From a virus, in the IMG/VR virus record IMGVR_UViG_3300032285_002481, positions 1 through 25,043 of that record: a DNA stretch of 25,043 bases; one strand, written 5' to 3'. Numbering within the stretch: the stretch's first letter is position 1; every line of letters begins with the position of its first letter. The notes below the pieces were generated by a model. The model saw only the letters and a program-made list of their open reading frames with translations, ran no database searches and was not told where the DNA came from. Both the position numbers and the translations under genes were made by a program. Of the stretch, positions 4,770-17,202 are shown in pieces.

Positions 4770-7700
4770 TTAAGCCCAAGATCCTATTGTAGCATTAGAG
4801 GATGCATTACCAACTGGCCAAACCTCCATAGCCGCTCCAGCTTGAAGTACAGTTGCTGCTCCAAGAGTTCCATTCGAGTGAGTGAATGCAATCTGCGGAT
4901 TCAGGGTGCCTCCTGTTATAATATCAAGAGTTCCGTCAATAACGAACGAATACCAAGTAGCACCAGTATTTGAGTTTGTGATCGTATATGTTGTAGTGAA
5001 ACCTGTGTTGACACTCTGGCTCACCTGGTATGCTGGCATAACAGTAGGCTGTGAAGTATTTGACGCGCATGGATTCGCGATGTAGTAGCTGCGCCCGATG
5101 TTTGCCGTCGCAGTAGCATTAGTGATGGCAAACTTTAGAGCGCCGGTGCTTGATAATGAAGTATTCGACTTATATACTGTACCATAGATCTTATAACGAT
5201 ATTTTGTATCTGAAGCCAATGTAACGCCAACACCAAACAAAGTTTGTGGAGTGTTAGCTGTTGACAACGATCTGTCTGCTTCATTGCTATAAACCATCAT
5301 CTGAGGAACAGAATTCGACCAATAAGCCGAAGAACCATTTGAAGTTAGGAATTGACCCGCAGTTCCAACAGAACCATTGGCAATAATACCTGCGGTAGAA
5401 CCGATGGTCAGATTAGCATTGTGTGTATGGACACCAGTTAGAGTATAAGCTCCAGCAGTATTGACATATGAGGCTGCAGCAACTCCGCCAAGATAAGAAG
5501 CATTGTTGGCTGATAGAGTCGCAACGTTAGCTGTTAGACCAGCCATAGTTTGATACAATGCTGCAGCATTAGCTACCGCATTACTGTATGCAGTTGCAGA
5601 GTTACCACTGATCCAGGAAACAATATTTGCCAAGGTTCCAGATGAGTTACCATGGTAAGTTGCAGCGTTCGCAGTCAATGTTACTACATTAGCTGATAAA
5701 CCAGCCATAGTTTGATATAGAGCGGCAGAGTTAGCTACTGCATTTGAATATGCAGTTGCAGCATTTCCGCTGATCCATGATGCTATGTTAGCAATAGTAC
5801 CTGAGGAATTACCGAGATAAGTTGTGGAATTCGAAGTCAATACAGCAACGTTTGCTGCCAATCCAGATAATGTTTGATAACTTGAAAGATTTGCAGTGAA
5901 GTTTGCGCCTGTTACGTAGTTAGCAAGATTTGCAATAAGTTGCGCATTTGATACAACATTTGCAGCAGGAAGTGTTCCGATATAACTTGCGGCATTGGCA
6001 GCAAGCAATACTACATTGGCTGATAGACCAGCCGATGTTTGATAGTTGGCTAGGTTTCCACTCAGCTGTGTTGAACTTACGTAGCCGGCAAGATTACCAC
6101 TCAACTGTGCGCTTGTTACAACGTTAGATGCCGGAATCGAACCAATAAAGTTAGCGGAATTCGAAGTCAACACTATAACATTGGCAGCAAGACCAACCAG
6201 TGTTTGGTAAGACACTAGATTTGATTGTAGTTGACCATTTGATACAACGTTTGATGCAGAGATTGAACCAACAAACGAAGTGTTATTTGAAGTCAATGTT
6301 GCTACGTTAGCTGAAAGACCAGCTGTTGTTTGATATGTTCCGGAGAAACTAGATACAGCGTTTGTGTACGCAGTTGCAGAGTTGCCTGTAATCCAAGAAA
6401 CAATATTAGCCAGAGTTCCAGATGAGTTACCAAGATAAGTTGCTGCATTTGCCGTCAACAATACAACATTTGCTGCAAGACCAGAAAGTGATTGATAGTT
6501 TGCAAGATTGGCTTGTAACTGAGCATTCGATACAACATTTGCTGCAGCAATAGAACCAACGAAAGCAACGTTATTTGCAGTTCCAATGATGGTATTTGTT
6601 ACTGTTAGATTATCGATGAACCAACCGGAAGCATTAGCTGAGCCGATTTTATTATTTGCAGTAGTTCCGCCAGCAAAGAACTTGATTTGTTTGGAAACGG
6701 TTTGTGTGCCAATGCCAAGATCACCACCATTGATATACAGATAACCGTCATTTGGACCAGTGATGCTAAAATCATTATTGGCATAGTTACTTGAGTTAAT
6801 ACCGAGGTCGATGTAGTTGTTTGAATCGGTACCAATATCATTTACGGCAACAAAATCTGCAGAAGCTTGAGTTCCGCTATTATGATTTTGTTCAACAATC
6901 TGATTATAGCTATTGATATTGCAATCAGCCTGGATTGTAGCATTTGGATAGTCGTAACCAGCGTACGCAGCACCGGCATGAAGTTGAGCGGTGAAGTTAC
7001 CGTTTGATGCTGAAACTGCATTGGCAGTTATATTCTGAGTAATAAGATTCGTATTACCAGTGGTCCAAGCATTATTCGATAGGTTATACAAGAAGCTTAC
7101 GTAATAAGCAGAAGCTGTATTACCAAGAGTGAAACCACCAGTATCAATTTGAGCGCTATTGGTTGAGTTATAAGCTAACTGGATTACAGCGTTGGAGATT
7201 GAAGCGGAGTTGGCGATTGTTGAGTTGCCAGTAACAACCAGATTCTGAACTGTGATTGTTTTGAACTGAACGTTTGAGGTCGTACCGATACTTTGTGGTA
7301 GACTTAGAGTTACGTTTTGACCGACATTAGCAACAATGACCTGATTAGCAGTACCTGATACTGTAAGAACTGCAGTAGAGTCGATACCAACAATACCAAC
7401 ATTAGCAGACTGAGTTAGACCAGTTCCTACATTGATTTTTGTTACGGCAGAAGTATTGCTGAACGCTGTATTCTGATATGTATTATCGGAGAATCTAATA
7501 CCAGCATTGGATGGTAATGTTATACCATTTGCTGTTACTGACATGGATAGTGTTTTTACACTATTTCCTGATGGCGCGTTATAAAACTTAGTTGTAGAAC
7601 CTTGAGTACCATCAGTGAAGTTATCAAGAGCAACAAACTCAATTGTTGTTGGAACTAGAGCACCAACTGTAGCAAATTGAGTAGTATCGTTTATGTAACC

Positions 7701-8738
7701 AGCGCCTGCAATTCTGAACAATACATCGTTAGCTTGTGATGCAGTTGCTGCATTAGCATTACCACGACCAGAACGACCAATCAATTGAACGGTTGTATTA
7801 CCAGAGCCAAAGTTATCTAACGTGACACGAGTGGTTGTATTCGCGTTACCGGTGATGTGTAACATACCACCAGGATTTCTTACAGGTTTATAACTACCAT
7901 CAGCTGAACCAATAACACTCAATGCACCGATATCATTTGATGGTATTGTTGACGGCGGATTGATTTGAACTCGACCTTCGCGAGTAACCCCAAATATTTG
8001 TGTATTTGTAGTCGGATTGTTCATAACAACCGGTCTATTGATTACCAAGTTACCAGTAGCTAACGTAGAACCAATATAGAAAACGGCATTTGAATCTGTT
8101 AGAGTAATGGCATTATTCTGAAGTAGGAAGTTACCTACACGAAATCCTGCATTAGATTGCGCCGCTGTGTTGGATGATTCAGCGATATAGAATACGCCAT
8201 TACCAACAGTAAGTGTTTGATCTGGGTAAGATGGATTTTGATCGGCAAATACAACAGAGTTACCACCAACCCATAAAGCTTCCCAACGCATCGATGAATT
8301 GCCGAGAGTATAGACATTATTTGATGTTGGGATAATATCACCGGGAGCTCTAAGCTCCCCATTCGCCTGAAAAGTCCAGGCGTAAGAATTGTTACCTGTG
8401 CGAATAGTTACGCTGTTCTGTGAAGAAATGTTAGCGGTTGTAAGCGAAGCAAACGTAACGTTATTCGTACTGTTTAGCTGCTGGTTGTAAACCGAAGCGC
8501 CGGAAATAACGCCATTAGAGATAGTGATAGTAGTGCCATCAACTTTTACCACACCGAGTTGTGTAGTGGTAGCTACCGGAATGATATTCGATGATATCAA
8601 ACTGTTAGCAAAGTTTGCCGCAGTAATGGTTTTTGTATTAGCTGCACTCGATGGATTTGATAAGATCACTACCCTGTCATTCGCAGACAGGGTAGTTGTT
8701 ACCGCTAACTCACTTACTTTTTTAGCGTCATTCGCCAT
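4770..8738 (-). CDS. Tail-fibre-like repetitive virion protein (1322 aa)
   Basis: The N-terminus (MANDAKKVSELAVTTTLSANDRVVILSNP...KTITAANF) matches the attachment end I associate with large fibre or structural proteins of T4-like phages. Residues about 700-1130 are tandem repeats with alternating units such as 'LSANVATLTSN..FVGSI.ASNVVSNGQL' and a longer 'Y.GNSSGT.ANI.SWI.GN.ATAY.NAV...Y' unit, typical of a trimeric shaft. The C-terminal ~170 residues (from PQMMVYSNEADRS to GSWA) form a distinct non-repeated domain, likely the tip or receptor-facing part. Composition is Asn/Ser/Thr/Ala-rich with almost no charged residues. AGGAG lies 8 bases before the ATG, and a late-type box lies upstream. 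No separate chaperone gene follows, so folding may rely on the 131-residue neighbour or on an intrinsic tip. Receptor specificity cannot be read from the sequence. Confidence 0.85.
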   Translation of the reverse strand: MANDAKKVSELAVTTTLSANDRVVILSNPSSAANTKTITAANFANSLISSNIIPVATTTQLGVVKVDGTTITISNGVISGASVYNQQLNSTNNVTFASLTTANISSQNSVTIRTGNNSYAWTFQANGELRAPGDIIPTSNNVYTLGNSSMRWEALWVGGNSVVFADQNPSYPDQTLTVGNGVFYIAESSNTAAQSNAGFRVGNFLLQNNAITLTDSNAVFYIGSTLATGNLVINRPVVMNNPTTNTQIFGVTREGRVQINPPSTIPSNDIGALSVIGSADGSYKPVRNPGGMLHITGNANTTTRVTLDNFGSGNTTVQLIGRSGRGNANAATASQANDVLFRIAGAGYINDTTQFATVGALVPTTIEFVALDNFTDGTQGSTTKFYNAPSGNSVKTLSMSVTANGITLPSNAGIRFSDNTYQNTAFSNTSAVTKINVGTGLTQSANVGIVGIDSTAVLTVSGTANQVIVANVGQNVTLSLPQSIGTTSNVQFKTITVQNLVVTGNSTIANSASISNAVIQLAYNSTNSAQIDTGGFTLGNTASAYYVSFLYNLSNNAWTTGNTNLITQNITANAVSASNGNFTAQLHAGAAYAGYDYPNATIQADCNINSYNQIVEQNHNSGTQASADFVAVNDIGTDSNNYIDLGINSSNYANNDFSITGPNDGYLYINGGDLGIGTQTVSKQIKFFAGGTTANNKIGSANASGWFIDNLTVTNTIIGTANNVAFVGSIAAANVVSNAQLQANLANYQSLSGLAANVVLLTANAATYLGNSSGTLANIVSWITGNSATAYTNAVSSFSGTYQTTAGLSANVATLTSNNTSFVGSISASNVVSNGQLQSNLVSYQTLVGLAANVIVLTSNSANFIGSIPASNVVTSAQLSGNLAGYVSSTQLSGNLANYQTSAGLSANVVLLAANAASYIGTLPAANVVSNAQLIANLANYVTGANFTANLSSYQTLSGLAANVAVLTSNSTTYLGNSSGTIANIASWISGNAATAYSNAVANSAALYQTMAGLSANVVTLTANAATYHGNSSGTLANIVSWISGNSATAYSNAVANAAALYQTMAGLTANVATLSANNASYLGGVAAASYVNTAGAYTLTGVHTHNANLTIGSTAGIIANGSVGTAGQFLTSNGSSAYWSNSVPQMMVYSNEADRSLSTANTPQTLFGVGVTLASDTKYRYKIYGTVYKSNTSLSSTGALKFAITNATATANIGRSYYIANPCASNTSQPTVMPAYQVSQSVNTGFTTTYTITNSNTGATWYSFVIDGTLDIITGGTLNPQIAFTHSNGTLGAATVLQAGAAMEVWPVGNASSNATIGSWA
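5480..6590 (-). repeat. Tandem repeats coding for the tail-fibre shaft
   Basis: Imperfect DNA repeats mirror the protein repeats. A ~150-base unit encoding GNSSGT.ANI.SWI.GN.ATAY.NAV appears around 5520-5680, 5690-5830 and 6310-6450. Shorter ~90-base units encoding LS(A/G)N...SNAQL fill the space between. Copies differ mainly at third codon positions, so they are old duplications kept by protein-level selection. Confidence 0.8.
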
Positions 8739-9776: not shown

Positions 9777-12700
9777 TTAGAAGTGTTTGCTCATAGCCGA
9801 TCTCATGGAGTCACGATTTGCATGTAGTTTGTTGGCGAAATCATCTTTCTCCTGAGTTGTTTTCATAGAGTTATGAGTCATCACCATGTGTCTGGCTAGA
9901 TGTCTACCGACCTTGGTCTTAGATCCATCTTTGTGCTCGTAATGAGGCTCTCTACCTTCAATAGAGTGAGCGATCTTCTCAAGCTGCTGCATTGGATGCT
10001 TGTGAGTATCATCAACTTCAGCTTCCTGACCTGCTGGTAGAGGATTCTTTCTTGGACGACCGCGACCTTCTTCAATCTCAACTTCTTCCTTGTGAAGTTT
10101 GATCTGTGACTTTGGAAGTGTTACAGAATTGGATCTATTGTTGTAGTCGACAGTATATTTCTTTTCGGACTTTTTGTGAAGACCATGGTCTATTTCGCCT
10201 ACGTTACCAATAACTCCGTGATAATCCTTGCCCGGAGCATGCACCTTTACTCTAGAGCCTATCTTGATAGCCTCCTGGAGATCAACTTCTTCCTTACGAA
10301 GCTTCTTCTCATCAGAGATTGTATAATCAGCTGTTGAGTTTTTTGTATTGAAACCGCTCTGGTCCTGATTAGCTCCGCGAGTTGGAGCTGAAGTAGCAGT
10401 TGTAGGCGCAGATGATTTCTTTACGGCTTCATCGATTTCCGTTTGAAAAGAACTTGCAATATCCGCAATACGAGCTAGCTCTTCTTCAGAGAACTCAACT
10501 TCTTCTTTAGCAAGACGGTCGGCTGCTTTAACAATACCCATTTGACGATTTTGCATTTTATTTAATATTTTATCTCTAGCGTCTGGGTGCGTTTTTGTGA
10601 TTTGACCAAGATGTTCTAAATCTCTAGGAGAACCAGAACTTGTCGCAGCTTTCTTGACATACGAAGCAAGAGTTGACCTCTTCAGCTCATCAAGTTGGTC
10701 AACTTCTTCGCCCATTTCTTTCTTGGACATACCAGCAGCTTTGACTTTTACATCCTTAGAGCCGATAGACTTCTTTAGAGCCAGGTCCATACCTGCTTTG
10801 CGCTGCCCACCCTTTGTTGGGTCCATTCTTTCAGATTTAGCTGAATGCATGTAACGTTGAAGTGTGTCCTTCGAAACTTCTTCAATGCCTTCAACTTCTT
10901 CTTTAATACCATATGGGTGTTCTTTGAATATCTTTTCGGATTTAGCTGCTAATGATTTACCTGCGATAGTGCTACCATTTCTGCTCTGAATGAGTTTATC
11001 TTCAATAGAAGCAGAATGCTGCATATGTGCGTTGTATGCTTTTTTATCGCCAGCTTTACGAGCGTATTCAGCGGCAGATCTATGCTTGTCTTGAAGTTTA
11101 TAAGCGTCTTTTACAGACATTGTATTTTCAATAAGATCCTCAACTTCTTCTTCCTTAACCACACCGCGACCGACTAACACATCCTTGTGCGTGATCTTGT
11201 CCTTTGGTGAAGCTAGAGCAGCAAGCTTCTTTTCTTTTTCAGTTTTGGGTTCAGTTCCGGACTTTGTTTCTTCCTTTACTGCCTTCTTCTTGCCCTTTGC
11301 TGCGGCATCATCATCATTTTGCTTGTCGTCGGTTTCCGGATCAAGATCAACAGCAGTCTTACCGCCTGTCATCTTCTTTGGATCCTTTTCGTCTTCGTCT
11401 TTCTTCTCGACGATTTGACGAACTGCGTCGATAAGGCTCTTAGGAAGCCCAAAGTTTGGTAGTGACATGGTTGGTTTTTCCTCTACGATTTTTGTTTTGA
11501 TTTGACCGGTTTTACTCAAAGTGGATTTTTCTGATGTAGGTTTGGCGCCATCCATACGAGCAACGTTCTCGATCTTTTCGCGCTTCTCTGTATTGGTTTC
11601 TTCTCTCAATTTTACGCCGTGATAATCTTGATCATCGCCTACTCTAGATTGTATGTAAGGACCATTTGATTCCATATGTTTCTTTGCTTTTTGAACCAAG
11701 TCGGGATGTTTCTTTTTTAGTTCTCTATAATGATCTTGGTGCTCTTTTTTCCACTCGGATCCTGCATGAACGTCCTTTGGCATATACACTGGTGATGCTG
11801 GGGAAAACAAATGGTGAGCTTCTTTTGGATTGTGCTTTAATGCATGATTAAGTTTTGCAGTCATCCATTCTTTAGCTTTATTACCTTCCGGATATTTTGG
11901 TAAATCTTTTTGATCGGACTTTTTACCGAAACCAAATATTTCGTTGATGGTTTCTTCGCCCAGAGTGTCAACCTTTTTTCCATCAACGTACAGATTGTGT
12001 CTGATCTTTCTGTTCGGATTCAGTTTTGTGATAGTCTCGTGTTTCTTTCTGGCTTCTTCTTCCGAAGCGTGATAGCTCTTCGCATCGTGCATTCCGCTCT
12101 CGCTTCCGTCTTTCTTGAGAGAAACAAGCACAGCTGATTTTTTTGCGTCCGAAGCAGCAGATCTTTGTTTTCTAATATCGCTGGCAGCATTTTTCCAACC
12201 CTTGATTGCTTCTTCGAGCTTATGTTCAATCACTGCTCTGTGTTTTGGACGTTCGACCTTGATGCCTCTTTTAGCAAGTTCTTTTCTTGCTTTCAATTCG
12301 TTATCAATCTGATCAGCAAAACCTGGGTGACTGTATGTCAGCTTTTTATTATTCGGATTGGTAATACTGGCGTGAGCTCTTTGATGAATACCTCTGATGG
12401 TTTCGGTATCAACATTAGGTCCGATATTAGCTTCAACAACCGTATCTTCGTGTAAACCTTTGTATTCAATAGACTTCACACTATGAACACCGAAGTTTTT
12501 TGCAGCATAACGAGCGGCTTTATCTCTTGCTGTTCTTGTATCATGCGCCGGAACCGTCAACTTGATTTTAGTTCCCTTGGGCTTGGCGCCAATAGGTTCT
12601 ACAGTTTTATCATCAACCATTTTACCAAGTCTCGTATCATCCGCATGTAGATGAACGTGAAACACATGTTTGGATTCGGTCATAGTTTCTTCTTTCAGAG

Positions 12701-13262
12701 AATGTTGATGTTGTTGAACAAAATATTCTGCAGCATCTTTTGAATTGTTATGGTATCTGTTATGCCTATTAAATTGTAGACCGTTCGCATCGCTATGAAT
12801 AGCGTATTTTGTAATATCTTTTCTAGACGCAACGTAACGCTTACCGGGAATTTTAGTGTCTTTATAAGCACTGGAAGGTTCTAGCGTAGCTACTTTTTTG
12901 CCTTTATGATGGATATCGTAAGTCGGCTTACCATCCGGATGAGCGGTAGTTGATTTCTTGCCAGTCTTTACTAGTTTATAATCGGGATGTATTTCTTCCT
13001 GCAATTCTTCAGACATTTTCATCGTTTCATTTCGACGCTGTTTAGCTTCTCTATTACGTTTCTCAACTTCATCTTCGCGTTTCTCTGCACTGTCAGCAAC
13101 AGCTTTTTTAGATGCAAGTTCGTGCGATTGAGCTCTATGCGCTCCGATATTCAATCCGCTTTTATTACTAGAAGATGATGTGTGTCTAAAAACACTTCCA
13201 CCAGAGCCAACTGGTTTACCTTGGCTTACAATGCCTTCTAGGATAGACTTGATGTCTCTCAT
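9777..13262 (-). CDS. Modular basic/acidic head-associated protein, possible polyprotein (1161 aa)
   Basis: The protein is a chain of basic, often His/Lys-rich modules separated by acidic linkers: HSLKEETMTE (188-197), GLHEDTVVEA, KLEEAIKGW, TLGEETINEI, KLREETNTE, GIKEEVEGIEE, MGEEVDQLDE, LAKEEVEFSEEE, RKEEVDLQEA, HKEEVEIEEG (1057-1066). Two modules are related: IEEVSKDTLQRYMHSA (793-808) and LDELKRSTLASYVKKA (857-872), a motif I recall from internal or structural proteins of marine T4-like phages. Residues 998-1056 look like an SH3/KOW-type barrel (IGSRVKVHAPGKDYHGVIG). GRGRPRKN (1066-1073) is an AT-hook. Most linkers hold an (I/L)-x-E site, the T4 prohead-protease consensus, and the N-terminus MRDIKSILE|G has one too. 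It overlaps the Dps stop by ATGA. I infer packaging inside the head and possible processing; no enzymatic domain is visible. Confidence 0.85.
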   Translation of the reverse strand: MRDIKSILEGIVSQGKPVGSGGSVFRHTSSSSNKSGLNIGAHRAQSHELASKKAVADSAEKREDEVEKRNREAKQRRNETMKMSEELQEEIHPDYKLVKTGKKSTTAHPDGKPTYDIHHKGKKVATLEPSSAYKDTKIPGKRYVASRKDITKYAIHSDANGLQFNRHNRYHNNSKDAAEYFVQQHQHSLKEETMTESKHVFHVHLHADDTRLGKMVDDKTVEPIGAKPKGTKIKLTVPAHDTRTARDKAARYAAKNFGVHSVKSIEYKGLHEDTVVEANIGPNVDTETIRGIHQRAHASITNPNNKKLTYSHPGFADQIDNELKARKELAKRGIKVERPKHRAVIEHKLEEAIKGWKNAASDIRKQRSAASDAKKSAVLVSLKKDGSESGMHDAKSYHASEEEARKKHETITKLNPNRKIRHNLYVDGKKVDTLGEETINEIFGFGKKSDQKDLPKYPEGNKAKEWMTAKLNHALKHNPKEAHHLFSPASPVYMPKDVHAGSEWKKEHQDHYRELKKKHPDLVQKAKKHMESNGPYIQSRVGDDQDYHGVKLREETNTEKREKIENVARMDGAKPTSEKSTLSKTGQIKTKIVEEKPTMSLPNFGLPKSLIDAVRQIVEKKDEDEKDPKKMTGGKTAVDLDPETDDKQNDDDAAAKGKKKAVKEETKSGTEPKTEKEKKLAALASPKDKITHKDVLVGRGVVKEEEVEDLIENTMSVKDAYKLQDKHRSAAEYARKAGDKKAYNAHMQHSASIEDKLIQSRNGSTIAGKSLAAKSEKIFKEHPYGIKEEVEGIEEVSKDTLQRYMHSAKSERMDPTKGGQRKAGMDLALKKSIGSKDVKVKAAGMSKKEMGEEVDQLDELKRSTLASYVKKAATSSGSPRDLEHLGQITKTHPDARDKILNKMQNRQMGIVKAADRLAKEEVEFSEEELARIADIASSFQTEIDEAVKKSSAPTTATSAPTRGANQDQSGFNTKNSTADYTISDEKKLRKEEVDLQEAIKIGSRVKVHAPGKDYHGVIGNVGEIDHGLHKKSEKKYTVDYNNRSNSVTLPKSQIKLHKEEVEIEEGRGRPRKNPLPAGQEAEVDDTHKHPMQQLEKIAHSIEGREPHYEHKDGSKTKVGRHLARHMVMTHNSMKTTQEKDDFANKLHANRDSMRSAMSKHF

Positions 13263-13693
13263 TTACCTGTAGCTTTCAGCATCCAGCCATGTTTTGAATG
13301 AATGTCAATACGGTCCTGCATGAAGTTAGAAAGACCTGGTTTATTTTCTTTTTCAGCCAGAACGTATGCCTTTGTCAATTCCGCGATAACCTTCTGATTA
13401 TCTGATTCCAACTCAGAGAACATTGCTCTTGCATTTGGAATATTGATTTGATCATCAACAACCGAAAGCTGGGAAAAACGACCGAGGCTACCAGGAGCGT
13501 AAGCATCAAGTGCTCTAATGTGTTCAGCAATAGCATCTACAGCCTCCCAAACTTCGTTATACAGTCCATCAAGAAAGGAATGATACTGAGGAAAGTTAGG
13601 ACCCTCAATATTCCAATGAAAATTGTGAGCCTTCAGATAAAAAGCGAAAGAGGACGCTAGGACCACTTTCATTTGCTGAACAAGCTGATCCAT
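13259..13693 (-). CDS. dps: Dps/ferritin-like DNA-protection protein
   Basis: Dps proteins form dodecamers that oxidise and store iron and shield DNA. The 144 residues carry the complete Dps ferroxidase pattern: H26 (in HNFHWN), H38, D42, D53 and E57, with spacing equal to E. coli Dps H51, H63, D67, D78 and E82. The family's 'GPNFPQYHSFLDGLYNEVWEAVDAIAEHIRALD' core and the C-terminal helix (HSKHGWMLKATG) are present. The long Lys-rich N-terminal DNA-binding tail of E. coli Dps is missing (start MDQLVQQMK). DNA contact may therefore be weak or supplied by partners. The gene is locked between the membrane coiled-coil gene (TAATG overlap) and the modular 1161-residue gene (ATGA overlap), inside the late block, so it is made when heads are assembled. 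Confidence 0.93.
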   Translation of the reverse strand: MDQLVQQMKVVLASSFAFYLKAHNFHWNIEGPNFPQYHSFLDGLYNEVWEAVDAIAEHIRALDAYAPGSLGRFSQLSVVDDQINIPNARAMFSELESDNQKVIAELTKAYVLAEKENKPGLSNFMQDRIDIHSKHGWMLKATGK

Positions 13694-13990: not shown

Positions 13991-14407
13991 TTATCCTCCA
14001 TTTCCGCCACCACCTGAGCTTCCGCTCTTTCCGGGTGGATGTTTTTCTATTTTACCAGATGCCATTCTAATCGCCACCATTGGCGTAGAAACTTCTTTAC
14101 GTTTACCAGTTGTTCCAGCTGGAACGCTTAGTTCGTTTAGTCTGAATACATGCGTCACATATGATCTGTTCTTACTAGCTCTACTCTTTTGTTCGCGATC
14201 GCGACTACCAGACTGCGAAGCCAGTTTGAAATGACCTTTCTTAACCAAGTTGTGAGCTGCTTCCAACTCTCTGTTTTTTCTTGGGTTGTGACTTATTTCA
14301 TGAGTCACTGATACCATTTTTTGCGGATGACCGTGAGCTCTATCAAACAAATCTTTTTCTGTCTTATTTAACGCGGCTTCTTTTATGTAGTTTTTGTATG
14401 ATTTCAT
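13991..14407 (-). CDS. Basic late protein with a T4 capsid-targeting-like N-terminus (138 aa)
   Basis: The N-terminus MKSYKNYIKEA matches the T4 internal-protein capsid-targeting sequence MKTYQEFIAEA at 6 of 11 positions, and the others are largely conservative. It places the (I/L)-x-E cleavage site at IKE|A. The rest (HGHPQKMVSVTHEISHNPRKNRELEAAHNLVKKGHFKLA) is strongly basic with many His, resembling T4 internal proteins in character though not in sequence. The C-terminus is a Gly/Ser-rich tail (PPGKSGSSGGGGNGG). It sits in the late block, starting 1 base after the DUF6321-like gene's stop. I infer a head-internal, possibly injected protein; its biochemical activity is unknown. Confidence 0.75.
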   Translation of the reverse strand: MKSYKNYIKEAALNKTEKDLFDRAHGHPQKMVSVTHEISHNPRKNRELEAAHNLVKKGHFKLASQSGSRDREQKSRASKNRSYVTHVFRLNELSVPAGTTGKRKEVSTPMVAIRMASGKIEKHPPGKSGSSGGGGNGG

Positions 14408-14408
14408 A

Positions 14409-15164
14409 CTAACAATTCCACTTTCTCAATGCTTTATTGATGCGGGAATCTGGATCGTGCGCAGTTTTGGCGCTAGTCAATCTCTTTTTCATACCACCCA
14501 TGCGAGCACAAAATGATTTACGACGGCTGTGCGCTTTAGTGCCCTTCTTGAGTTTAGAAGGTTTGGTAGTTACTGGCGCTTGAAGATGGCTTCCGGTAGT
14601 TCTGTTGTAATGATCTCTACCTTTCTGACTCAAACCGCCATTCGGGTTTTGATATTCGTTTTCGTCGATGTCTTTTTTCTTACCGCAAGTGCAGACACCA
14701 CCACACTCATAAAGAACTTCCTCGATAACTTTCTTTACGATTCTTTTTGATGACTGACCTGGAGTGTCTTTCTTATAAGTGTCAACCAATTCTTTAGACC
14801 CTTCAAATCTAGAAGATGGCTTCATTTTATTTTTTGAATGAACCTCAGCATCTTCTTTCATATCTTTTGGTTTCTTGCCAGCCTTTTTCATAGAGATAGC
14901 GATTGCCGCTTGCTGCGCTGGAGAAACTGCTTCTGGAACGCAATCAGGAACCATTCTGTTTCCCTTCTTCTTCATACCAACTTTCTTGTATCCGTCCCAG
15001 CATGCCTCGTCGACGCTATCTTCTTTCATTGCAGCCATATTGTCAACAAGATTTGGATATGGGCGACCAGCTGCTCGCGCGCGTGCTTTCGCGCTCTTGA
15101 CTTGAGAGCTTGACATACTTTTCCCTTTAGACGGGACTTCGTGATTCCAAGGTTTGTCTGACAT
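14409..15164 (-). CDS. Lys/Cys-rich late protein with DUF6321-like C-terminus (251 aa)
   Basis: The C-terminal ~85 residues (NPNGGLSQKGRDHYNRTTGSHLQAPV...KKGTKAHSRRKSFCARMGGM...ALRKWNC) match a phage domain I recall as DUF6321, with the invariant 'RRKSFCARM' and terminal 'LRKWNC'. The middle has a 'CWDGYKKVGMKKKGNRMVPDCVPE' module common in marine T4-like phages and a Cys cluster YECGGVCTCGKKKD that could bind metal. The N-terminal part (SSSQVKSAKARARAAGRPYPN) is basic and DNA-binding-like. (I/L)-x-E sites occur at IEE|V and IDE|N. A perfect late promoter (15185-15192) and GGAG 6 bases before ATG precede it. It opens the sub-operon running through the Dps and modular genes. A head-internal or DNA-associated role is inferred; function is unknown. 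Confidence 0.8.
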   Translation of the reverse strand: MSDKPWNHEVPSKGKSMSSSQVKSAKARARAAGRPYPNLVDNMAAMKEDSVDEACWDGYKKVGMKKKGNRMVPDCVPEAVSPAQQAAIAISMKKAGKKPKDMKEDAEVHSKNKMKPSSRFEGSKELVDTYKKDTPGQSSKRIVKKVIEEVLYECGGVCTCGKKKDIDENEYQNPNGGLSQKGRDHYNRTTGSHLQAPVTTKPSKLKKGTKAHSRRKSFCARMGGMKKRLTSAKTAHDPDSRINKALRKWNC

Positions 15165-15219: not shown

Positions 15220-17202
15220 CTAACGAGATTTCAATCTCTGAAACACTCTGCTCAACAAATCGTTGATCTCTTCGGTTACATTGGTTTTTTGTTTGACAGC
15301 TTTCGGTTTTCTAACTGGTTTCTTCATAGCTTTCATACGCTGTCTGCGCTCGACCTCGGCGCGAGCTTTGACGCCGATTGGGTCATTACGTTTAGCGTAT
15401 TTACCAAGTGATATACCGGAAGTCTCAGGACCAATCTGAATGTCCATACCTTTACGAACATCATTGAACATCTCGCGCGCATGCTCGGGATGGACATGAG
15501 GAGGAATACCTTTCTTGAACTCACCGAATCTGTTTGTTATAGCGTGGGCGCGCATTTTTGAGGCTGACATACCTGTAACACCCTCAGCATCTGGATCGCG
15601 TTCGCCAGCCGAAACAACGTCAATTTTTTTGAAATTGAACTCTCCGTTCGGACCGTTATATCTATCTAACAGCTTCTTATATTCATCGACACGGTCAGAA
15701 CCAGCGACCATGGTCGCATGAGTCACACCTTGTTTATGAAGCTTTTTCAGCTGTTCGATGAACGTGGGAGCATCGTCATCTGCCGCAGTGATGTTAGCTC
15801 CTGGAAAAAATCTCTTGGCGTGTTTCAGTTTCTGCTCCGGAGTCAGAGGATTCTTCTCTGGATCCTGTGAGCTAGAGATAACGATAGAATGACCTGCTTT
15901 CTTAGCAGCTGCTAGTTCCCTGACTTTATCAACTAGAGCTCCGTGACCGACGGTCGGAGGATTCATTCTACCAAAGGCGAACACATGTTCCTTATCGCCT
16001 TCTTCTGTCGGAGTGGCGTCCGGTTCGCCTTTACCTCTGTTGTTAGCGAAATTGAGTCTGCTGAACTCGGCTCTATCAACCAGCTTCGTAGGTTTACCGT
16101 CTCTAATTGAAACAAACCCTTCAGGCTTGACCTGTTTACCGCCGACGGTATTTTCAAACTCTGTAGGGTTGCCTAGAGCTTTTACCAGAATGTCTTTCGC
16201 GGCTTGTAAATGATGATGAAGATCGAAAGCTGACTTGTATTTTTCTTCGTTTGTTTTCAGGTCGTCTATGAGTTCGTTGTATGCGCCAGCTTTCTTTTCT
16301 TTGGCTGCTTCTGTCTTCAGTTTCTCTGTTTCTTTGTTTCGTTTGTCTTCAAGAAACTTCATGTAATCTTTTACGTTAGGTGTAGTTCCGTCTCTAACGG
16401 TTTGATTGATGTATGGTTTGATGAATGTATCGTGTTTGCTTAGAGATTCTAGAACGTCAGTACCTGTATTTCTGTATGCTTCATCAGCAGCTTCTCTATG
16501 TTTAGCGTATTCAGCTTGCATAGCTTTGGTGTATTTTGACTTGCTTGTATCGTTGACTTCTGGATTGACTAGGTTTACGTCTGGGTCTTGTTTGAACTTT
16601 GAATGATCAACATCGAATCCTGCCTTCATATCGGCAAGATTCTTTCCTTTGTATTTCGTATGAACAACAAATCCTATCTGAGAAGCTGCTATCTTTCTAC
16701 CTTGCGCACTGTCTTTATCGGCTGAATATGTAATCGTATTAGGAGCAAACTTGTACTTACCACCCTCGTCTTCAATGTCTGGTTTGTCGTAAAGGAAGTC
16801 GCCTTGATACACACCACCTTCTTTTGGCATAATCTTTTGAAGATGCGCAAGAGCCACTTTCAACTTAGCAACAAGACCAGGAGCGTGACCGTGGTTCTGC
16901 TCGATGTCTTTATCGGTGTAGTTGATTTTTGGATTTTTGTTGAATGCTGACTTCGAGGCTACAAAAAACTTACCATTCTCTGGGTTGATACCGAACACAA
17001 TTGAAGGCGAACCATCGTACTTGGTTGTAATCTTCGACTTAGACTTACCACCTGTAAGAAGGCTGTGAAGATCATCTAGGTTGTCGGCAGCATGCGCAAC
17101 ACCAGCATCGCCTCCATGAATGATATGATCCTCGGCATGTTCTAGATGCTTGAGCTTATCGACATCGAGGGATTCGATCAAAAACGTAGAGAATGTTATC
17201 AT
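15220..17202 (-). CDS. Fusion of a KxDG ligase-like domain and an HxGH-type nucleotidylyltransferase domain (DUF6267-like, 660 aa)
   Basis: The N-terminal domain has the hallmarks of covalent nucleotidyltransferases (ATP/NAD ligases, capping enzymes): K61-Y-D63-G64 (motif I nucleophile), GVYQGDF (130-136, motif III region), E361-GFV (motif IV) and K373-LV (motif V). I recall phage proteins of this type as DUF6267. The C-terminal domain (about 405-585) is a nucleotidylyltransferase of the NMNAT/cytidylyltransferase superfamily: FAFGRMNPPTVGH (408-420), VAGSDRVDEY (499-508) and GMSASKMR (544-551, ISSTxxR-like). In the first motif the first His is replaced by Thr417, as in other phage members. 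The N-terminus MITFSTFLIE|S resembles the T4 capsid-targeting peptide with an LIE cleavage site. The ATG lies 2 bases after the upstream stop. Domain assignments are firm; substrates (NAD, RNA or a sugar nucleotide) are unknown. Confidence 0.85.
   Translation of the reverse strand: MITFSTFLIESLDVDKLKHLEHAEDHIIHGGDAGVAHAADNLDDLHSLLTGGKSKSKITTKYDGSPSIVFGINPENGKFFVASKSAFNKNPKINYTDKDIEQNHGHAPGLVAKLKVALAHLQKIMPKEGGVYQGDFLYDKPDIEDEGGKYKFAPNTITYSADKDSAQGRKIAASQIGFVVHTKYKGKNLADMKAGFDVDHSKFKQDPDVNLVNPEVNDTSKSKYTKAMQAEYAKHREAADEAYRNTGTDVLESLSKHDTFIKPYINQTVRDGTTPNVKDYMKFLEDKRNKETEKLKTEAAKEKKAGAYNELIDDLKTNEEKYKSAFDLHHHLQAAKDILVKALGNPTEFENTVGGKQVKPEGFVSIRDGKPTKLVDRAEFSRLNFANNRGKGEPDATPTEEGDKEHVFAFGRMNPPTVGHGALVDKVRELAAAKKAGHSIVISSSQDPEKNPLTPEQKLKHAKRFFPGANITAADDDAPTFIEQLKKLHKQGVTHATMVAGSDRVDEYKKLLDRYNGPNGEFNFKKIDVVSAGERDPDAEGVTGMSASKMRAHAITNRFGEFKKGIPPHVHPEHAREMFNDVRKGMDIQIGPETSGISLGKYAKRNDPIGVKARAEVERRQRMKAMKKPVRKPKAVKQKTNVTEEINDLLSRVFQRLKSR

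Follow-up and report, generated by a model that had tools for sequence, protein, structure and literature searches.

The viral DNA analysed here (positions 1 to 25,043 of IMG/VR virus record IMGVR_UViG_3300032285_002481; 25,043 nucleotides, hereafter the window) is a 25-kb piece of a T4-like phage genome and encodes the DNA polymerase gp43. Our subject is a long open reading frame (ORF) on its minus strand, which we interpret as a probable polyprotein of the phage head. The encoded protein begins with a short N-terminal signal, a putative capsid targeting sequence (CTS), followed by about 12 mostly basic modules with acidic linkers between them. The whole ORF matched nothing in PHROGs (E ≤ 0.01) or Pfam (above cut-off), and these scans gave no match to the core proteins gp22 and gp67. 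Its parts are listed below from the N- to the C-terminus; arrows mark predicted cleavage positions, and the relatives are five close IMG/VR homologues.

9777..13262 (-), putative polyprotein ORF, 1161 amino acids; five close relatives with differing module sets
13236..13262 (-), predicted CTS, residues 1-9, MRDIKSILE↓G, a 9-residue variant (compare MKSFKKILE↓T in L038); based on position, (I/L)xE, conservation in all relatives and the CTS consensus of stand-alone genes
12996..13235 (-), segment 10-89, ending LQE↓; relatives break at 84/85
12690..12995 (-), module 90-191 (EIHPDY...); among the relatives in L002 only; homologue within a CTS-headed gene of L116
12675..12698 (-), linker LKE↓ETMTE↓; breakpoint 190-192 in four relatives
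12447..12674 (-), module 197-272 (SKHVFHV...), by homology
12432..12455 (-), linker LHE↓DTVVE↓, by sequence
12210..12431 (-), module 278-351 (ANIGPN...HKLEE↓), by sequence and homology
11955..12209 (-), module 352-436 (AIKGWK...); stand-alone CTS-headed genes in Xanthomonas phage X1 (51%, E=4e-25) and L116 (69%, E=5e-34)
11940..11963 (-), linker LGE↓ETINE↓; breakpoint 438 in all five relatives
11601..11939 (-), module 442-554 (IFGFGK...); missing in all five relatives, whose shared blocks skip from 438 to 554
11586..11609 (-), linker LRE↓ETNTE↓; breakpoint 554
11142..11585 (-), segment 560-707, low-complexity and charged, with two further IVE sites inside, by sequence
11127..11153 (-), linker EEEVEDLIE↓; breakpoint 705-710
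10899..11126 (-), module 713-788 (NTMSVK...); missing in relatives; helical, the only high-confidence part of the full model
10878..10901 (-), linker EEVEGIEE↓; breakpoint 788
10710..10877 (-), module 796-851 (VSKDTLQRYMHSA...), by homology
10686..10709 (-), linker EEVDQLDE↓; breakpoint 852-854
10506..10685 (-), module 860-919 (LKRSTLASYVKKA...), the commonest module; 172 hits in 103 proteins, linker statistics, three-helix model
10482..10505 (-), linker EEVEFSEE, without (I/L)xE; breakpoint 922
10293..10481 (-), segment 928-990, with IDE↓A at 943-945, by sequence
10272..10292 (-), linker EEVDLQE↓; breakpoint 991-994
10089..10271 (-), module 998-1058 (AIKIGSRVKVHAPG..., KOW/SH3-like by eye), by homology
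10068..10088 (-), linker EEVEIEE↓; L005 has an additional module (AFVVYHK...) inserted here
9780..10067 (-), C-terminal module 1066-1161 (AT-hook-like GRGRPRK), by sequence; kept in all relatives

All acidic linkers named in a preliminary description of this DNA were located in 9777-13262 (-), namely KEETMTE, HEDTVVEA, LGEETINE, LREETNTE, KEEVEGIEE and EEVDQLDE, as were EEVEDLIE, EEVDLQE and EEVEIEE. The motif EE[VTA]x(2-4)E occurs 11 times, far above the 0.5 ± 0.7 expected, a count that rules out a chance origin of this linker motif. The tripeptide (I/L)xE shows a mild overall enrichment (17 seen vs 10.4 ± 2.9 in shuffles, p=0.023), and the description's estimate of about ten by chance was close to the mark. 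It had further claimed that these sites are regularly placed at module borders. With breakpoints set solely by homology to the five relatives, independently of the motif, 11 of the 17 sites lay no more than 6-10 residues away from a breakpoint (binomial p from 2.6e-6 to 1.7e-4 according to the width allowed), and 9 of 11 breakpoints had an (I/L)xE site. By inspection, 12 of 13 module starts carry the site, the N-terminus counted. The linkers ending in T/M/VxE (MTE↓S, VVE↓A, NTE↓K) each have LKE, LHE or LRE five residues upstream.

The modules are basic, as had also been noted. The chain has a net charge of +37, with 12 of 13 segments at +3 to +8 and the remaining one at 0; across 23 proteins, the linkers are acidic (-19 per 100 amino acids) and the modules basic (+8 per 100 amino acids). 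The AT-hook and SH3/KOW modules of the preliminary description stood as sequence motifs (GRGRPRK at residue 1066 and the stretch AIKIGSRVKVHAPGKDYHGVIGNVG at residue 998), but no Pfam model recognised either. Charge and these short motifs suggest that the modules may bind DNA. The AlphaFold model of the full chain was of low confidence (pLDDT 38.6) and unusable. The SKxTLGSYVKKA module gave a three-helix model of moderate confidence (pLDDT 77) with no significant match in the PDB, and 6 of its 28 members match one PHROG of unknown function. Profile searches of the modules revealed no sequence homology to T4 proteins. Single-linkage clustering, which lumped the modules into a single large cluster, was set aside.

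Modules of this chain are also found as genes in their own right, starting with a CTS. Xanthomonas phage X1 has a separate 92-residue gene, MTFEEFLGE↓AIKGWK..., homologous to window residues 344-434 (51% identity, E=4e-25); the window counterpart starts HKLEE↓AIKGWK, and the homology begins exactly after (I/L)xE. The locus L116 contains consecutive genes starting MTTFKQYLSE↓, (MAE)MISFKEYITE↓, MRSFKDYITE↓, MISFKEYLEE↓, MISFKQYLQE↓AIKGWK and MISFKEYLEE↓, and in its AIKGWK gene the module border again lies directly after (I/L)xE. Window residues 349-428 (69% identity) and 95-180 (31%) have their homologues in two of these L116 genes, and one gene of the run starts like the small CTS gene at 13991-14407 of the window. 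Thus, what one phage encodes as separate genes corresponds to a single chain in the window phage. The six small genes stand in a row (L116:413-3677) with near-identical CTSs of consensus M-x-[ST]-F-K-[EQD]-Y-[LI]-x-E. Caulobacter phage Cr30 carries the SKxTLGSYVKKA module both N-terminally, behind MRSKILAE↓, and internally, behind LDE↓ or LEE↓. When N-terminal and internal copies were paired, 33.9% of the distinct contexts had [ILVMF]xE at the mapped position vs about 2-3% at most other offsets, a figure diluted because some of the 24 query clusters are ordinary proteins. This test required homology to start no more than 3 residues from the site, a rule tightened after the first result was known; the first pooled border test gave 19%, diluted by non-CTS proteins and extrapolated starts.

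In the CTS of T4 IPIII, residues 4 and 7 serve targeting, and residues 8 and 10 serve processing (review PMC9026906). Among the collected ORFs with F/Y at position 4 and F/Y/L at position 7, 67 of 105 have [ILVM] at 8 and E at 10 (p=2e-52), while other positions give 0-10. The stand-alone CTS genes conserve positions 4, 7, 8 and 10, whereas the internal linkers keep the processing residues only. The SKxTLGSYVKKA module provides the largest set, with 114 internal copies preceded by dissimilar upstream sequence. [IL]xE stands before the module in 106 of the 114 (background 1.4% per residue), P1 is E in 113 and P3 is I/L/V/M in 113. The positions matching the targeting residues are mostly Q/E and E, not aromatic. 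Judged at the sequence level, this residue pattern is as expected for a chain that is targeted by a single signal and processed at many sites.

The preliminary description had suggested aligning relatives module by module to see shuffling, and the alignment revealed it. The five close IMG/VR relatives encode chains of 843-955 amino acids, in which whole modules are gained, lost or swapped at linkers. The shared blocks have 77-100% amino-acid identity (mostly 94-99%), and the matching DNA blocks 79-99%. At the junctions, shared DNA blocks overlap by about 10-13 bp (about 10 bp for module 442-554, which has GAAGAAACC at both its borders in the window). The linkers are repeated DNA of the type AARGAAGAAGTTGA, with EEV codons identical in 88.8% of within-gene pairs vs 56.5% expected from codon usage. 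Given this codon identity and the junction overlaps, the linkers are plausible recombination joints, and the data suggest that recombination at repeat-like linker DNA drives the shuffling, so that close relatives carry different module sets. Recent duplication of linker-module units would give similar repetition of the linker DNA. At least 600 stretches in IMG/VR match. A short module, GNQHKIDKNKNNKIDAEDF (L065:3808-4593 and other loci), is found in many polyproteins and looks EF-hand/dockerin-like by eye, which would imply calcium binding.

The prohead protease gp21 (Peptidase_S77) and the shell protein gp23 are present in 8 of 8 genomes larger than 100 kb with such proteins, comprising four IMG/VR contigs and phages X1, S-SKS1, P-TIM68 and Cr30. 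Immediately ahead of the conserved shell domain, the gp23 propeptides terminate in LLE↓A, LNE↓T, LNE↓A, LME↓A or LTE↓T, and by analogy with T4, gp23 would be cleaved at these LxE-type ends. The gp21 proteins of L091-L100 have several [ILV]xE sites near their own N-termini (e.g. MKLIRELTESVQYLTEE), and T4 gp21 has such N-terminal sites likewise (review PMC9026906).

Homologues are also found in virions. S-CREM2 gp160 was detected in the virion proteome with 7 unique peptides and 13.1% coverage (PMC10665884 Table 3); it has CWPGY and KDACYHK modules behind NLEE↓ and EISE↓. S-SCSM1 ORF29 has CWPGY and KDACYHK modules and a DUF6321-type module; its record, in which mass spectrometry served to identify the virion proteins, labels it as one of them (PMC9602691). 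Bellamy gp123, S-SM2 109, S-CAM9 gp114, S-SSM7 gp114, S-H25 and S-SM1 115 show the same architecture with other order and content, and 502 phage records match S-SM2 109. What these homologues have in common with the window proteins is the architecture and part of the module set, not the whole chain. For Cr30, no virion proteomics was found in the open literature.

Since the linkers carry the cutting signal of the head protease, the chain is probably cut inside the forming capsid. We consider it likely that this T4-like phage directs the gene product to the capsid as a polyprotein, which gp21 then cuts into small internal proteins. A capsid polyprotein had been proposed in the preliminary description; linker shuffling, CTS-headed copies, gp21 and gp23 with LxE ends, and homologues in virions support that proposal. 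We infer cleavage at the linkers, retention in the head, ejection and functions for the single modules, as follows. The single N-terminal CTS (MRDIKSILE↓) would bring the chain into the prohead core, where gp21 would cut behind the (I/L)xE of the N-terminus and of the acidic linkers and so set free about 12 small, mostly basic internal proteins. Like the internal proteins of T4, these would stay with the packaged DNA and probably enter the host by ejection. Each module would represent a T4-style internal-protein gene that has lost its own targeting residues and kept the processing residues, and linker-linker recombination would add, remove and exchange modules in frame.

Several observations weigh against this interpretation. 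No cleavage products of the chain have been observed, and the window, a 25-kb fragment, contains no gp21. The chain's CTS is a 9-residue variant, whereas the stand-alone module copies have canonical ones, and with a loose pattern, a CTS-like N-terminus was found in 65 of 150 complete polyproteins vs 210 of 1127 other ORFs. One border, EEVEFSEE at residue 920, is the sole one lacking (I/L)xE. Within modules, (I/L)xE is not depleted (54 seen vs 48.5 expected, in a count whose mask missed some real linkers); selection against interior sites is no strict requirement for a gp21-processed polyprotein. Finally, EEV is conserved at linker positions P8-P6, more than a T4-type protease site requires, and the linker may therefore have a further role.

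The lack of observed cleavage, the interior sites that have not been purged and the EEV conservation beyond P3 and P1 would also fit an uncut, beads-on-a-string internal or scaffold protein that enters the prohead and in which the linkers act as acidic spacers or multivalent core-docking motifs and at most the CTS is removed. We regard such a protein as unlikely: no linker residues are more constant than P3 and P1, which exactly match the CTS processing site of the stand-alone copies, and gp21 is present, which in T4 cuts core proteins at such sites (PMC9026906). Considerably less probable is a degraded core scaffold, that is, a giant functional relative of T4 gp22/gp67 shredded by gp21, with the pieces leaving before packaging and the modules not being cargo. 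T4 core proteins are indeed cleaved at several places, and most of the resulting fragments leave the head (PMC9026906). However, homologues of the chain are still detectable in purified virions, in S-CREM2 a scaffold gene of its own lies beside gp21, and close relatives differ too widely in their modules for a core that determines size. That the linkers serve only as recombination joints, being short DNA repeats that spread together with the modules and carry (I/L)xE as a passenger, would account for the EEV codon identity and the junction overlaps but is highly improbable, as P3 (I/L/V/M) and P1 (E) are kept even where an unrelated N-terminal CTS replaces the linker, for which DNA homology alone is insufficient.

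The proposed gp21-processed polyprotein resembles T4 IPI, IPII, IPIII and Alt, which have a CTS and are cut by gp21, in its short N-terminal signal with key positions 4, 7, 8 and 10, the cut expected after (I/L)xE, the small basic cargo and the presence of gp21 and gp23 in such phages. Unlike them, the window chain fuses many cargo modules behind one signal with internal (I/L)xE linkers. T4 gp22/gp67 are likewise single chains cut at several gp21 sites inside the head, but they are essential, conserved scaffold whose fragments mostly leave, whereas here the modules are variable and also exist as separate genes. The cyanophage T4-GC 119 / gp114 group (S-SM1 115, S-SM2 109, Bellamy gp123, S-CAM9 gp114), S-SCSM1 ORF29 and S-CREM2 gp160 share (I/L)xE at module starts (IDIEE↓GKKDACYHK, FELDE↓KCWKGY, VIDE↓KSAAWTRK); they differ in module set and are annotated as hypothetical or virion proteins, and no polyprotein description was found in their papers. 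In the phiKZ-like phage SPN3US, a gp21-like protease cleaves the head cargo proteins gp47, gp53 and gp54 behind xxE, and in some of these the propeptide has several sites (PMC5694885). These inner-body/ejection proteins are thus similar in being head cargo processed by a gp21-like protease, but there long propeptides are removed, and no chain of exchangeable modules is reported in PMC5694885.

Upstream of the polyprotein ORF lie four genes.

13259-13693 (-), ferritin/Dps-like gene; PF00210 2.3e-25, PHROG DNA-binding protein
13991..14407 (-), small stand-alone protein with canonical CTS MKSYKNYIKE↓A; its homologue starts an L116 gene, CTS consensus
14409..15164 (-), second modular protein (CWDGY module and DUF6321); PF19846 5.5e-21, border VDE↓ACWDGY
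15220..17202 (-), DUF6267 and cytidylyltransferase-like protein with canonical CTS MITFSTFLIE↓S; PF19782 1.9e-100, PHROG cytidyltransferase 9.8e-64

The ferritin/Dps-like gene is directly upstream, its stop codon overlapping the polyprotein start. No CTS was seen at the start of the second modular protein (14409..15164), whose L006 counterpart has an additional AEYQGRQV module behind ITE↓. The S-CREM2 counterpart of the 15220-17202 protein, gp154, starts with the CTS MKNFSSFLTE↓A and was found in virions; the CTS may therefore explain the NMNAT-like proteins reported in cyanophage virions. Elsewhere in the window, gp43 shares about 51% identity with its cyanophage homologues along the full length, and translations read by eye include a UvsX-like recombinase and a gp41-like helicase. 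A 1322-residue protein (4770-8738, minus strand) has repeated GLSANVxxLxxNxxxxxG units and appears tail-fibre-like by eye; in several relatives the DNA of this gene is diverged or missing.

In the open-access literature, we found no description of a fused, shuffled polyprotein and no paper naming the linker motif, DUF6267 or DUF6321. Targeting and processing follow the rules of T4 internal proteins, and the fused, shuffled form is new relative to the literature found. As a tentative proposal, rather less secure than the polyprotein itself, T4-like phages of fresh and sea water may maintain an array of recombining cassettes in the form of a CTS-led polyprotein, with early-infection effectors or anti-defence peptides as its modules, repeated linker DNA doubling as the protease site and one signal delivering a changing peptide mixture into the host. 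With this interpretation, a very common class of phage proteins that lack annotation, found in those IMG/VR stretches and in hundreds of cyanophage records, acquires a function that can be tested. With many cargo domains behind one signal and a protease site that is also a recombination joint, it points to a possible route to quick diversification of injected proteins.

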